From IMG/VR virus record IMGVR_UViG_3300025687_000185, positions 1-32,345 of that record: DNA of 32,345 bases, one strand, 5' to 3'. The notes beneath the pieces were generated by a model. It was not told the DNA's origin, made no database searches, and saw only the letters and a list, made by a program, of their open reading frames with translations. Positions 13,371 through 18,720 of this stretch are shown piece after piece (position 1 is the first letter of the stretch; every line of letters begins with the position of its first letter). Source of the DNA: a virus. The translations under genes were made by a program, and so were the position numbers.

Positions 13371-13544
13371 ATGAAGCTATTTCAAATTTACGATCGACAT
13401 ACCAATAAGGCGCTGGAAGGCGCCTTTTTTGACTCTAAACCGAGTGCAAAACAACATAGAGCAGAGCTCAATGAACAGAGCGGTGAAACCGCCCGGTATA
13501 TTGTAATTCCGGGACCCGACCACTGGAGATACGCACAGAGGTAG
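13371..13544 (+). CDS. Small ORF containing an internal terminator
   Basis: A 57-residue open frame (starts MKLFQIYDRHTNKALEGAFF) with an excellent ribosome site, TGGAGG, 15 bases after the primase stop. It ends three bases before the next gene. No family is recognised. An intrinsic terminator lies within codons 13-20, so translation of this frame could control read-through into the downstream ATPase block. It may be a true small protein, a leader peptide, or both. Confidence 0.55.
   Translation: MKLFQIYDRHTNKALEGAFFDSKPSAKQHRAELNEQSGETARYIVIPGPDHWRYAQR
13407..13430 (+). terminator. Intrinsic terminator or attenuator inside a small ORF
   Basis: AAGGCGC (13407-13413), loop TGGAAG, GCGCCTT (13420-13426), ending in a run of six Ts (13425-13430). 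Stem, loop and T-tract are canonical. It lies 36 bases into the 57-residue ORF after the primase gene. Confidence 0.7.
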
Positions 13545-13546
13545 TC

Positions 13547-14446
13547 ATGAAATATGAACAGATATTTAGCTTTGACGGGATTCGTAACTACGCTGATGCA
13601 GAAATCTATTACAGCCACTGCCGTACCCCGAGCAAAGGTAAAAGGTTTCGAAACTGGGGGCGGATATACAAAATGGACGGATTTTATTCATTCCGGCTTG
13701 TATACAACTCTAAAGATCACAAAGAGTTTTTTCGTATTTACGAAAACGACATTGCTGAATTCGTAGTAGATCCGACAACGATTCAAGCGTGGGCGCACAC
13801 GTTAGTAGGGCATTTATTCGTTGCGTTGCCGTTTGCTCTTTATCGTAAAAGCACAGGTGTATACCGCATTGCTCATTTACAAGAAATGGCTGATTACGCA
13901 GACCAGCACCCAAATGAACGGTTTCCTGTATGGCCCGCTTGGGACTTTCTCCGAAAAGGAGACGCCGGGTACTACTTCAACGGGATTAAATACGATCTGA
14001 AAACAGGCAAATGTTTAAACCCACTTTTAGCGATAGCAAAACCAGAAGCCAATCCTGATATACGCAAACAATGGCTTCGGGATCTAAAAGCGTTCAAGCT
14101 TGGTTTCAAAGCCAGAATCAAACTAGGCGTCATGGACACAGTTGCTACAAGCGTATACAACAAAGTTCAACAAAACCTCATTGTAAAAGCCACCGAATGG
14201 ACCGACGACAACGTTAAATTCGTAACTGATTGCATAAAAAATCAGTCTTTTCCTACAAAACTGTTAGAAATGTTTGCTTTTAGAGCCAATGGGTACATTT
14301 GGGCCTCGTTAACTTCTAAACCTACGACACATGAAATAGAAGTATTTTTTGATAAAGCTATGAAAACTTTAAGTTTTAAGCTCCGTACTGAGTATGGAGT
14401 ATTTGATTCAACCCAGGAGAAAGCCAATGAAACCAGAACTTCTTAA
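13547..14446 (+). CDS. Protein of unknown function upstream of the MoxR ATPase
   Basis: A 299-residue protein rich in aromatic residues (many F, Y, W), for example FAFRANGYIWASL near its C-terminus. No transmembrane segment or known motif stands out. GAGG before the ATG supports the start. Its 3' end overlaps the start of the AAA+ ATPase gene by 20 bases, so the two are probably translated together. The family is not recognised; a role linked to the downstream ATPase is possible from context only. Confidence 0.6.
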   Translation: MKYEQIFSFDGIRNYADAEIYYSHCRTPSKGKRFRNWGRIYKMDGFYSFRLVYNSKDHKEFFRIYENDIAEFVVDPTTIQAWAHTLVGHLFVALPFALYRKSTGVYRIAHLQEMADYADQHPNERFPVWPAWDFLRKGDAGYYFNGIKYDLKTGKCLNPLLAIAKPEANPDIRKQWLRDLKAFKLGFKARIKLGVMDTVATSVYNKVQQNLIVKATEWTDDNVKFVTDCIKNQSFPTKLLEMFAFRANGYIWASLTSKPTTHEIEVFFDKAMKTLSFKLRTEYGVFDSTQEKANETRTS

Positions 14447-15425
14447 AAGCACTATCAAGTCTTTGTTCCCTATTCAGCGCACTATGTCCGTCGAAGGCCC
14501 TCCAGGTGGCGGCAAGACAACGATCGTAAAAGACACAGCTCGTGAACTTGGTGTCCACTACATCGAACGTCATATGCCGACTATGTTGACCGAAGACTTT
14601 GGCGTTCCTGATATGACAACCGCATCTGATACCTTTGGTTATAAAACTCCAGAGTGGTACCCAGCCAAAGGATCTAAATACGACGACGGTCGTGGCGGCA
14701 TTTTATGTTTCGACGATCGCAACCAGGCCAATAACGACTTACAAAAAGTTCTAGCTAATATTTGCCAAGCTCGTAATCTCCACGGTGTTCCGCTTGCAGA
14801 TGGTTGGCAAGTTATCTCTACTGGTAACCGTCAATCCGACCGTGCCGGTGCCAATCGCGTACTGTCTCACTTGCGTATGCGTGAAACCGTAATCGAGCTT
14901 GAAACGCACCTAGATAACTGGTCTTCATGGGCTATCGACAACGGTATCAAGCCTGAAGTTATTTCGTTTATTCGTTTCCGCCCTAACTTGCTGCACGATT
15001 TCGATCCGCAGCGTGATCAGAACCCATCACCTCGTGGTTGGTCTGAAGGCGTTAGTGATGTCCTGACCGTTGTTCCACCCGAAGCTGAGTACGAGGTGTT
15101 TAAAGGCGCAGTTGGTGAAGGCGCCGCAGCCGAGTTCGTAGGCTATCTGAAGATCTTCCGCACGCTGCCCAATCCAGATCATCTGATCATGAATCCTACG
15201 ACTGCTAACGTACCAACTGATCCTGCTACGTTGTATGCACTATCGGGCGCTATCGCTGAACGTGCTTCGGAAAATAATTTCGAGCGTGTATGTACTTACG
15301 CTGAGCGCATGCCGCCTGAATTCTCAGTTCTGTCTATTTCGTACGCCACACGTAAAAATCCAGAACTAGCTGACACAGCAGCGTTTACAAAGTGGTCGAT
15401 CAACCACCAAGATATTTTGTTCTAG
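14427..15425 (+). CDS. MoxR-type AAA+ ATPase
   Basis: A 332-residue AAA+ ATPase. Walker A is GPPGGGKT at 24-31 and Walker B ILCFDD at 92-97; a sensor-1-like STGNRQSDRAG and an arginine-rich SHLRMRETVIELE segment follow. Glycine spacing and overall size match MoxR-family chaperone ATPases, which work with VWA-domain partners to remodel protein complexes. AGGAGA lies 8 bases before ATG 14427, so the longer in-frame version starting at 14394 is rejected. The DUF3150-like gene (15867) and VWA gene (16920) nearby complete a set also seen in other mobile elements; N4-like phages carry an AAA ATPase beside a VWA gene. Substrate unknown. Confidence 0.85.
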   Translation: MKPELLKSTIKSLFPIQRTMSVEGPPGGGKTTIVKDTARELGVHYIERHMPTMLTEDFGVPDMTTASDTFGYKTPEWYPAKGSKYDDGRGGILCFDDRNQANNDLQKVLANICQARNLHGVPLADGWQVISTGNRQSDRAGANRVLSHLRMRETVIELETHLDNWSSWAIDNGIKPEVISFIRFRPNLLHDFDPQRDQNPSPRGWSEGVSDVLTVVPPEAEYEVFKGAVGEGAAAEFVGYLKIFRTLPNPDHLIMNPTTANVPTDPATLYALSGAIAERASENNFERVCTYAERMPPEFSVLSISYATRKNPELADTAAFTKWSINHQDILF

Positions 15426-15427
15426 TT

Positions 15428-15880
15428 ATGGGATACAGAAGTGACATAGCTATTGGTATAGCGTTCGATACTTATGAACAGTTCGTATCCTTCGTGACTA
15501 AAACTAAACTTTCTCCTGATTTTAGCCAGGAAGAGTTTGATGCTTATTACCACACGATCTACAAACACGGTGAGTCTGAAGTACATACAATTTATATGTA
15601 CAACGAAGATGTTAAATGGTACCCAGGTTATCCAGATGTTGAATGGCACAACAAACTAATGGAAGAAGCTAAAAAATCCGATGCTTCTGTCTATTTTATT
15701 CGTATTGGAGAAGAGCTTGGAGACATAGAAACTGATTACAGTTCAAGCAATTCGTCAGACTCGATGGATGCGCTATTTAATATGATGGGGGTCAATCAAT
15801 CTATTTATGCTCCCGTATCTGAGCAATCAGTAACGGAGTTTTTGTCACTAAGTAAAGGAATTAACCATGAATCTCTCTGA
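15428..15880 (+). CDS. Conserved phage protein with MGYRSD start, function unknown
   Basis: A 150-residue acidic protein beginning MGYRSDIAIGIAFDTYEQF. This opening recurs in small hypothetical proteins of unrelated phages, as I recall. A Ser/Asp-rich linker (SSSNSSDSMD) precedes the C-terminus. The ATG lies two bases after the stop of the ATPase gene without a clear ribosome site, so it probably depends on coupled translation. It overlaps the next gene by 14 bases. Being between the ATPase and its likely partners suggests co-function, but this is context only. Confidence 0.6.
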   Translation: MGYRSDIAIGIAFDTYEQFVSFVTKTKLSPDFSQEEFDAYYHTIYKHGESEVHTIYMYNEDVKWYPGYPDVEWHNKLMEEAKKSDASVYFIRIGEELGDIETDYSSSNSSDSMDALFNMMGVNQSIYAPVSEQSVTEFLSLSKGINHESL

Positions 15881-16718
15881 CAAAGCATTATTAGTACAAC
15901 TCAACATTTCCCAATGGTCCGCTCGTCGTCTAGACAAGAAAGCTACAAAACAAGTAGCTGAATCAAACGGTGCCGATGGGGCAGTCGGTAATTACAACAA
16001 ATGTTTATTGCCCGCCAACAACGCGCTTGATCTTATCCACAAGAAAACTTCCATGATTCGTAAGAAGTTTTATACCAACACTTTACCGTGGGGTATGGAA
16101 GGCATTCAGATTTTGCCGAACAACAACTACTTCGAATTCATGACTGAGTTTCGTAAAGAAAAGAACGAATGGGAAAAACTCGTTAACGACTTTCTAATTC
16201 ATTACCCAACCGCTAAGGACACAGCCAAAAAGCACTTAGGTAGTTTGTTTTCTGAAGACGATTACCCACCCATCGATCAGCTTCGTAACAAATTTGGCAT
16301 GAGCTTATCGGTCATGCCTGTACCTAACGCCGATTTTCGTACTCAGTTAGCCTCTAACGAAGTCGAAAAGATTCAACGTCAGGTGGAAGACCAGCTCAAA
16401 GCAGCGCAGCAAACAGCTATGAAAGAGTTGTGGACTCGTCTTTACGACAAAGTTAAGCACATGGCTGACAAACTTAGTGATGAATCAGCCATTTTTAAAA
16501 ATACTTTAGTGGAAAACATTCGCGAACAAACGATGATGTTGACTCGTATGAATTTTTCTGACGACCAAGATATTAAAAATATTCGCGACGAAGTAGAAAA
16601 ATTACTAATTGCTTATGAACCAGATACTTTGCGCTTTGATCCAGCGGTCCGTAGGACCGTAGCAGCTGATGCACGCGCTATCAGCGACAAAATGGCGGTG
16701 TTTATGGGGGGCTTATGA
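15867..16718 (+). CDS. DUF3150-like protein, likely partner of the MoxR/VWA pair
   Basis: A 283-residue protein. The opening LVQLNISQWSARRLDKKATK, the segment NTLPWGMEGIQILP (about 72-85) and PVPNADFRTQL are patterns I associate with DUF3150-type proteins, which sit in operons with MoxR ATPases and VWA/metallopeptidase-like genes. Much of the second half is helical and charged. AAGGA precedes the ATG; the stop overlaps the next start by ATGA. The role is unknown: probably a structural or adaptor subunit of the ATPase complex. Family naming is from memory and should be checked by profile search. Confidence 0.65.
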   Translation: MNLSDKALLVQLNISQWSARRLDKKATKQVAESNGADGAVGNYNKCLLPANNALDLIHKKTSMIRKKFYTNTLPWGMEGIQILPNNNYFEFMTEFRKEKNEWEKLVNDFLIHYPTAKDTAKKHLGSLFSEDDYPPIDQLRNKFGMSLSVMPVPNADFRTQLASNEVEKIQRQVEDQLKAAQQTAMKELWTRLYDKVKHMADKLSDESAIFKNTLVENIREQTMMLTRMNFSDDQDIKNIRDEVEKLLIAYEPDTLRFDPAVRRTVAADARAISDKMAVFMGGL

Positions 16719-16969
16719 ACTTTTCACAGGTAACTATGTACGACGTTTGGGAGCATCAGTACAAAACGCATGACACCCATCAATGCGAAGACTGCGAAAA
16801 CGCTACTTATATACCGTTTGGTCCAGACGACGCAGGCGGGTATGAGTGCAATTTAAATCACGATGCTCCAGCCGACGGTTGTCCGTACTACGTAGATAAC
16901 ATGGAGAAGGAAGAAGACTATGAACTTAGAGACGAAGCTCAGCAAGGCAAAGACCAGCTTAATTCTTGA
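16715..16969 (+). CDS. Small cysteine-rich putative zinc-binding protein
   Basis: An 84-residue protein with a CxxC pair (CEDCENATY), a later C near YECNLNHDAP and another in DGCPYY, consistent with one zinc site formed by four cysteines and nearby histidines (residues about 20-60). The rest is acidic. Its start overlaps the stop of the DUF3150-like gene (ATGA), and its 3' end overlaps the VWA gene by 50 bases, so expression of all three is tightly coupled. No specific family is assigned. Confidence 0.6.
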   Translation: MNFSQVTMYDVWEHQYKTHDTHQCEDCENATYIPFGPDDAGGYECNLNHDAPADGCPYYVDNMEKEEDYELRDEAQQGKDQLNS

Positions 16970-18029
16970 GCACCCGTTTATCGGCACTATCGCTCTTAAT
17001 ATGCCGTTCAAGCTAGATGAAAACGTTCAGACTGCGGCTACTGACGGCAAACAGGTGCTGTTCAATCCAGATTTTATCAAGGATCTAACTGACGAAGAAA
17101 TGAAGTTTCTCGTAGCGCACGAGTGCATGCACCCAATGCTTGAGCACACTACGCGCCGTAATGGCCGTGATAACTATCGTTGGAACATGGCTGGTGATTA
17201 CGTCATTAATCAACTGCTGACTCAAGAAAACATCGGGCGTATGCCCGAAGGCGGGCTTTGTGACGGCACCATTTATAACAACGGTGGGGGTACGTCGGAC
17301 GGAATTTACAATCTTTTGCCGGAAGGTTCTGGAGGCGGCGGTTATGGCGGCAACGGTGAGCCACTTGACGAAATTCTAGACTCTTCGTCTAGCCCGGCAG
17401 AAACTTCTAAACAGCAGGCTGAGTGGCGCATTAAAGTAGCTCAGGCGGCGCAAGCCGCAAAAATGATGGGCAAGCTCTCATCTGGTTTGGAGCGCCTAGT
17501 TTCGGGTTTACTTACCCCCAAAGTTGTTTGGCAAGATGTTTTAGCGCGTTTCGTAGAACGAGCGAAAAACGACGAACGTTCTTGGGCACGTCCAAATCGT
17601 CGTTTCGTCGCGCAGAACATGTATCTACCGAGCGTGTCGGGCGAAGTTATGGGCGAGATTGCCATCGCTGTCGATTGTTCTGGCTCTATTGGCCAGGAAG
17701 AAATCGATCAGTTTGCAGCTGAGATTCGGGCTATCCAAGAAGACTCACGCCCGGCCACTATTCACGTAATCTATTTTGATTCGGAGGTATCGCATTATGA
17801 GACCTATGGCCCTGACGATGGACTCAATATCCGTCCGCACGGGGGAGGGGGTACTGCCTTTTCTCCTGTCTTTAACTATATGGCCGATAAAGATATTAAC
17901 CCTGTGGCTTGTGTTTTTCTTACTGACCTTTACTGCAGCGATTTTGGCCCTGAGCCAGATTATCCAGTTCTTTGGGTTACAACTGGAACAGATGACGCAC
18001 CGTTTGGCGAAGTAGTCAAAATGAAATAA
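16920..18029 (+). CDS. VWA-domain protein with metallopeptidase-like N-terminus (DUF2201-like)
   Basis: A 369-residue protein with two parts. The N-terminal part has a zinc-peptidase signature, AHECMH at 66-71 (HExxH form), within a DUF2201-type putative metallopeptidase region. After a glycine-rich linker (about 121-146) the C-terminal part is a von Willebrand A-like domain with an intact MIDAS motif D252-x-S254-x-S256 (VDCSGSIG). Proteins of this kind are partners of MoxR ATPases; the VWA domain binds targets through a metal ion. Whether the peptidase site is active is unknown. AAGGAAGA before ATG 16920 supports the start. It follows the DUF3150-like gene after one small gene, as in other MoxR/VWA clusters. 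Confidence 0.85.
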   Translation: MNLETKLSKAKTSLILEHPFIGTIALNMPFKLDENVQTAATDGKQVLFNPDFIKDLTDEEMKFLVAHECMHPMLEHTTRRNGRDNYRWNMAGDYVINQLLTQENIGRMPEGGLCDGTIYNNGGGTSDGIYNLLPEGSGGGGYGGNGEPLDEILDSSSSPAETSKQQAEWRIKVAQAAQAAKMMGKLSSGLERLVSGLLTPKVVWQDVLARFVERAKNDERSWARPNRRFVAQNMYLPSVSGEVMGEIAIAVDCSGSIGQEEIDQFAAEIRAIQEDSRPATIHVIYFDSEVSHYETYGPDDGLNIRPHGGGGTAFSPVFNYMADKDINPVACVFLTDLYCSDFGPEPDYPVLWVTTGTDDAPFGEVVKMK

Positions 18030-18039
18030 GGAGATATTT

Positions 18040-18720
18040 ATGGCAGTTGTTCATTTTTCCCAAAAACTACGCGATGAAATCCTCAAAAAAGGCAGACGGA
18101 TTTACATAGATAAAATGGAAAAGCACAAAGATGCTTTTCCAGCAGCATTCAACAAAGATCTGTACGAAGCACTTATGTCTCCGTACATCGGGACTATTAA
18201 CAAGCTTCCTACTCAGTTCTTTTCCCAGATTACTACCATCAATGTACTGTCTGTATCTGGCGTAAAAGTAGAAAAGGAGTATACAACCGGTAATCCGGTG
18301 GTATGGCCGTATATCTCCACTTCGCAAGCGTTTAAAGAGCTGTTCCCGTATGTACAAAGTGAATATACGTACCGCAACACTGAGATTAATCTAGCAGTTA
18401 AAGATTTAGATGGCCTATTTGCTCACCGCCCAGTGTTAGAGCCATACCGCGAGCCTTTAATAAACTGGGTAGCTAAAGCTCAAGAAATTAAAGCCCAAAG
18501 CGAAAAGTTTGAAGCTGGCGTTAAAGACATTATCAATTCATACAAGACGCTAGCTCCTGCACTAAAAGCATGGCCGCCGCTATGGGACCTTCTTCCTGAA
18601 GATGCACAAACTCGTCACAAACAGACGGCTACACGTAAGTCAGCCAACGTAGTAGATGAGTTAGATGTCGATCTAAACGCCCTAACTTCAGCCGTTGTGT
18701 CACATAAACTTGGGGTTTAA
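18040..18720 (+). CDS. Protein of unknown function, faint resemblance to Nmad5
   Basis: A 226-residue protein opening with a helical segment (LRDEILKKGRRIYIDKMEKH), then a beta-rich middle (about 55-85) and a helical tail. The overall pattern faintly recalls Nmad5-type phage proteins predicted to be associated with nucleotide modification; this is memory-based and weak, and no catalytic residues can be named. The ribosome site AAGGAGA is strong. It follows the VWA gene by 10 bases and its stop abuts the next ATG. It may instead belong functionally with the ATPase/VWA set. Confidence 0.6.
   Translation: MAVVHFSQKLRDEILKKGRRIYIDKMEKHKDAFPAAFNKDLYEALMSPYIGTINKLPTQFFSQITTINVLSVSGVKVEKEYTTGNPVVWPYISTSQAFKELFPYVQSEYTYRNTEINLAVKDLDGLFAHRPVLEPYREPLINWVAKAQEIKAQSEKFEAGVKDIINSYKTLAPALKAWPPLWDLLPEDAQTRHKQTATRKSANVVDELDVDLNALTSAVVSHKLGV

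Follow-up and report, generated by a model that had tools for sequence, protein, structure and literature searches.

Several described systems join an AAA+ ATPase to a VWA protein. Bacterial pairs of the CobS-CobT, NorQ-NorD and CbbQ-CbbO class perform cofactor or metal insertion, and midasin acts through a MIDAS domain. In the MoxR-vWA ternary systems there is also a third component, which is VMAP, an inactive STAND (iSTAND) protein, FtsH or a vWA-fused beta-propeller (PMC7159879). The minigluzincin Wss1 is reported to partner with Cdc48 on chromatin (PMC4559962). Our literature search returned no functional account of the gp24/gp25 pair of phage N4, and no openly available paper that mentions DUF3150.

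The window analysed here is the whole 32,345-base stretch of IMG/VR virus record IMGVR_UViG_3300025687_000185. Family scans identify two blocks of genes. Those for head and packaging (terminase, portal, major head protein) read leftward; those of the replication region (primase-helicase, RecB-like exonuclease, SNF2 helicase, DNA polymerase) read rightward, and between the primase and the exonuclease sit the genes of an ATPase, a DUF3150 protein and a VWA protein, which we call the trio. All genes whose coordinates are given below lie on the + strand. An initial annotation had placed this set in a phage replication region, which the flanking primase-helicase, exonuclease, helicase and polymerase bear out, and its coordinates and reading frames for the gene cluster at 13547-18029 proved right apart from minor start and overlap corrections. 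Its assignments also held: the MoxR-clade ATPase paired with a VWA protein is backed by the AAA_5 match, the motif alignment and midasin as top match, the HECMH and intact MIDAS of the VWA protein by the invariance of both motifs in aligned relatives, and the DUF3150-like protein by profile-profile alignment. It had further described three small unknown genes, all with overlapping starts. Overlaps are indeed present between the 299-aa and ATPase genes (20 nt), the MGYRSD and DUF3150 genes (14 nt), the DUF3150 and Cys-rich genes (4 nt, ATGA) and the Cys-rich and VWA genes (50 nt), but the MGYRSD gene does not overlap the ATPase gene, because its conserved ATG at 15428 is 2 nt past the ATPase stop, and the first 'small' gene encodes 299 residues. 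The frames of the set are kept at 45-80% identity across about 100 relatives, and on this sequence conservation the cluster is more than chance.

The ATPase (332 aa, 14427..15425) starts at a conserved ATG, the listed open reading frame beginning at 14394. It matches Pfam AAA_5 (1.3e-5) and phrog_1297 'ATPase' (5.7e-69), and its closest solved relative in the PDB by profile is midasin (3e-24). Its motifs are Walker A GPPGGGKT, Walker B ILCFDD, a sensor-1-like GNR and a conserved arginine, R152; in an alignment of relatives the Walker A, sensor-1 and arginine positions are invariant. The protein therefore carries the Walker A, sensor 1 and arginine finger of the MoxR/midasin clade and deviates from it in Walker B, where D replaces the usual catalytic E. 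Walker B reads DD in the clade of the contig and in Burkholderiales plasmids, and DE in readable AAA-VWA pairs. DUF3150 accompanies all 107 readable cases of DD, while the seven readable AAA genes without DUF3150 are all DE. We nevertheless rejected DD as a signature of DUF3150: DE also occurs at five DUF3150 loci, and given the relatedness of the loci DD reads as lineage history. The substitution of Asp for Glu in this clade could mean slow or no hydrolysis.

The VWA protein (369 aa, 16920..18029) consists of a metallopeptidase-like domain (Pfam DUF2201_N, 'putative metallopeptidase domain', 3.8e-51) and a VWA domain (DUF2201, 'VWA-like', 6.1e-27), the latter also matching VWA folds by structure. 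The MIDAS residues D252, S254, S256, T312 and D336 are invariant in 30 aligned relatives, so the locus has the co-encoded VWA protein with an intact MIDAS that is expected of MoxR-vWA systems. HECMH extends to HECMHPMLEH, giving an HExxHxxxxH motif at residues 67-76 of the N-terminal domain, and both this and the MIDAS are invariant out to N4-like, Thermus and Synechococcus phages. Two copies, one from a phage (L149:4521-5699) and one from a plasmid (L122), have lost the peptidase glutamate and keep the MIDAS; they read HTVMH (L149) or have no HExxH at all. DUF3150 was not detectable in the L149 fragment. The metallopeptidase-VWA family is labelled 'HNH endonuclease' in PHROG 1314 (phrog_1314) and in many GenBank phage records (for example L193 and L195); this looks like a propagated mislabel, contradicted by the Pfam matches and the motifs.

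The DUF3150 protein (283 aa, 15867..16718) is our proposed third subunit or client adaptor, on the grounds of profile-profile match and co-occurrence. Against Pfam DUF3150 (PF11348) it scores 13.1 bits, under the curated cut-off of 24.9, and four of 38 aligned relatives reach E<=0.01. Profile-profile alignment with curated DUF3150 (hhalign) covers 278 columns at a probability of 97% and an E of 1.4e-10, whereas two decoy families come out at about 0.1%. Judged by these profiles, the contig protein is a remote, full-length member of the DUF3150 superfamily. Its AlphaFold model is mostly helical (pLDDT 77, pTM 0.47). Searching the PDB for the fold returned no match at E<=0.001, which is weak evidence of a new fold because the model is moderately confident; structure matches in BFVD include DUF3150 proteins. 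Three positions, D233, D132 and D23, hold an acidic residue in 98% of a diverse set of 52 DUF3150 proteins, and D233 is contained in a near-invariant loop, LN-x-x-x-D-P.

Two scans of viral contigs yielded 106 related loci. Counting only related IMG/VR contigs with enough flank, every one of 87 loci has DUF3150 upstream of the VWA gene and every one of 64 has the ATPase with it, and the order AAA-DUF3150-VWA, on the same strand, holds in all 89 loci having the three genes; since viral loci share ancestry, these counts speak of stability rather than of independent events. MinM2, a Synechococcus phage, has the same contiguous trio, as do plasmids from Cupriavidus, Burkholderia and Caballeronia (Burkholderiales) and from Rhodovastum; in Simplicispira the AAA gene is 3.6 kb upstream of the other two. 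Among 300 Burkholderiaceae genomes, 31 have the family, and in the 20 loci retrieved DUF3150 is always beside the VWA gene and the trio is contiguous in 18 (in the two loci without the ATPase, the locus was short or the frame not recovered). On several plasmids the trio has a PRTRC cassette on one side and type IV secretion genes on the other. In the Burkholderiales plasmids L114 and L138-L141 it follows that cassette (ThiF-like E1, ParB and others) about 5-9 kb downstream, in some cases directly before the type IV secretion genes. At five curated Pfam DUF3150 loci an HExxH+VWA protein is adjacent in all five and a MoxR ATPase is nearby in four. In a tree built from the ATPase and VWA proteins most trio loci group together and MinM2 joins a Rhodovastum plasmid, with several long branches. 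A window-type trio filed under an actinobacterial MAG (L111, CAKZRW010000107.1) falls inside the phage clade of this tree, and is probably phage DNA binned with that MAG. The side-by-side occurrence of the trio in many phages and conjugative plasmids suggests a widespread machine with DUF3150 as its third part.

The N4-like phages examined do carry an AAA/VWA pair, as had been claimed, without DUF3150, and the same holds for the jumbo phages examined. Using MinM2 as positive control, we found DUF3150 absent from the whole records of the pair-bearing phages G7C (N4-like), Thermus phiFa, Bacillus G, Vibrio K477, Rhizobium RHph_TM3_14A, S-TIM5, Ettore and RD-1410W1-01. A divergent DUF3150 hidden in Bacillus phage G, phiFa or Vibrio K477 was rejected, given that neighbour candidates score 0.1-0.2% by hhalign against 100% for the positive control. 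It follows from this absence that the AAA-VWA pair works without DUF3150 in those genomes. The set itself is missing from the closest cultured relative, the sister phage KPP25 of Pseudomonas (terminase 44%, polymerase 40%), whose primase, exonuclease, helicase and polymerase are in the same order as in the contig. The whole genome of KPP25 contains neither a VWA protein nor DUF3150, and the 34 kb examined show no match to the ATPase, 226-aa or 299-aa proteins. The set thus behaves as a removable cassette, as KPP25 is without it at the syntenic place, and not all phages of this general type need it.

A survey of gene neighbourhoods separates companions of the trio from passengers. Besides DUF3150, which is fixed in the set, two genes co-travel with it. 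The 299-aa gene (13547..14446), whose product has no notable family match in Pfam or PHROG scans, accompanies the trio in 68 of 70 relatives and is downstream of it in those phages. The 226-aa gene (18040..18720) accompanies it in 85 of 89 related phages, shifting place but staying close (it lies between AAA and DUF3150 in L151 and L154), and was not seen in the plasmid loci tested. Its product has a match to Pfam Nmad5, a nucleotide modification associated family, that is just under the cut-off (2.1e-5), and 18 of 33 family members match. The MGYRSD (150 aa, 15428..15880) and Cys-rich (84 aa, 16715..16969) proteins had been suggested as extra subunits. This did not survive the survey: MGYRSD is found in four of about 105 contigs and the Cys-rich protein, which has weak zinc-finger hints under cut-offs, has no relative in the loci collected from them. 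Neither is conserved with the ATPase and VWA genes, and we rejected both as subunits, regarding them as accessory; the small genes in the gaps of the core vary from lineage to lineage. Upstream of the 299-aa gene is the gene of a 57-aa protein (13371..13544). In L149 and L151, two phages whose DNA polymerase is similar, a relative of this protein is the immediate neighbour of the ATPase; the role of the 57-aa protein in the set is uncertain.

Our preferred reading, which we consider probable, takes the trio for a MoxR-vWA type of AAA+ remodelling machine, carried by mobile elements, in which DUF3150 is the third component. The predicted ATPase ring would supply the force, and the VWA protein would dock on the ring, its MIDAS metal site gripping a carboxylate of the partner. 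DUF3150 would be dedicated to presenting the client, as a helical scaffold or adaptor, or would itself be the MIDAS ligand, with D233 in the conserved loop a candidate residue for its function. Going by motifs and gene order, a physical complex of ATPase and VWA protein is very likely, and we infer with rather less assurance that DUF3150 belongs to it. The metallopeptidase-like domain may clip what the ring pulls apart, or may act as a metal-stabilised binding domain; whether the set performs proteolysis we judge to be evenly balanced. Counting against the preferred reading are the AAA-VWA pairs that occur without DUF3150, the Walker B Asp, and the L149 and L122 copies that have lost the peptidase glutamate. 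The client would be a protein complex on the DNA of the element, such as a host roadblock or a replication or defence complex, because phages carry the cassette within their replication region and plasmids carry it next to partition or transfer genes. Gene neighbourhood being the whole basis for DNA-bound clients, we hold this step to be doubtful.

The alternative that survives best, though we think it unlikely, is an AAA+-powered metalloprotease, in which the ring would unfold specific proteins and the HExxH domain cut them, as the minigluzincins Wss1 and Spartan do with Cdc48/p97; proteins bound to DNA, or host factors, would thereby be cleared while a phage infects or a plasmid becomes established. 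HExxHxxxxH is intact in all 105 related viral VWA copies collected and in MinM2, G7C and phiFa, but the catalytic Glu is lost in L149 and L122, which keep the VWA site. The N-terminal domain is closest to selecase, a minigluzincin (probability 1.00, with a partial TM of 0.5 over the target), and combines HExxH with a selecase-like fold as minigluzincins do; by sequence the match is weak (E 0.0055), and the third zinc ligand is at the stage of candidates, the invariant H76 and D93. The replication and transfer setting in phages and plasmids is consistent with such a protease, and the reported Wss1-Cdc48 partnership on chromatin (PMC4559962) provides a precedent. Against it stand the Walker B Asp and the lack of a compartment-forming protease partner. 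Wss1-Cdc48, as a minigluzincin-AAA partnership, would be the most attractive model for the set, and we treat it as a lead.

Improbable, in our view, is a counter-defence or element-borne conflict system with DUF3150 as sensor or effector. Such a system would share the three-part logic of the ternary systems of Kaur et al. 2020 (PMC7159879), and the cassette-like presence, with absence in KPP25, would suit it. However, the distribution of the set in the phage clade is close to fixation and not patchy, DUF3150 is not VMAP, STAND, FtsH or a beta-propeller, and the PADLOC models of known anti-phage defence give weak P-loop matches only; NCBIfam and PADLOC scans otherwise returned nothing useful. 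Least credible is an insertion chaperone of the CobS-CobT, NorQ-NorD or CbbQ-CbbO type for one metalloenzyme, for which bacterial AAA+/VWA pairs of that class and a weak ATPase match to phrog_249 'porphyrin biosynthesis' (0.012) can be cited, but against which the larger genes scanned on this fragment contig include no large CobN/BchH chelatase subunit, as in CobNST or BchHID, and no obvious client enzyme; nor was an enzyme seen that is common to the unrelated elements in which the trio recurs.

The finding equates a module of phages with one of conjugative plasmids, makes a testable third subunit of a family whose function was unknown, and provides a reference point, in terms of what DUF3150 adds, for hundreds of phages with an orphan AAA-VWA pair (569 records have the VWA protein). 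A bolder version is that the machines with DUF3150, as carried by phages and conjugative plasmids, form a MoxR-vWA ternary class of their own, whose AAA+ ring, MIDAS-bearing minigluzincin-like protein and DUF3150 would together strip or cut proteins on element DNA as a mobile-element counterpart of Cdc48-Wss1/Spartan; this we regard as speculative and rather improbable.

Compared with known systems, the trio is nearest to the N4-like gp24 (AAA) and gp25 (DUF2201 metallopeptidase-VWA), which are homologous, adjacent or nearly so, and have MIDAS and HExxH intact. That pair differs in lacking DUF3150 (in the whole records of G7C and seven other pair-bearing phages), in the Walker B DE of readable pairs and in the type of phage. 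The curated DUF3150 (PF11348) loci, from genomes of the same class as Paraburkholderia G001, resemble the trio in having DUF3150 by an HExxH+VWA protein, with a MoxR ATPase nearby in four of five and remote full-length homology, but their partner VWA proteins are larger (frames of about 540-780 aa), have the motif context HExxH...T and are not DUF2201. RavA-ViaA and midasin share a MoxR/midasin-clade ATPase with a MIDAS-bearing VWA domain; the trio differs from them in having no known ribosome or respiratory client, in the metallopeptidase-like domain on its VWA protein and in the addition of DUF3150. With the ternary systems of Kaur et al. (PMC7159879) the trio has in common a MoxR AAA+ protein, a vWA protein and a conserved third component. 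An iSTAND match in the set reaches 14.3 bits against a cut-off of 24, and the third component is DUF3150 instead of one of theirs; the vWA protein bears an intact peptidase-like domain, and the genes are on phages and conjugative plasmids. Because its third component differs, the trio falls outside the four published ternary classes.
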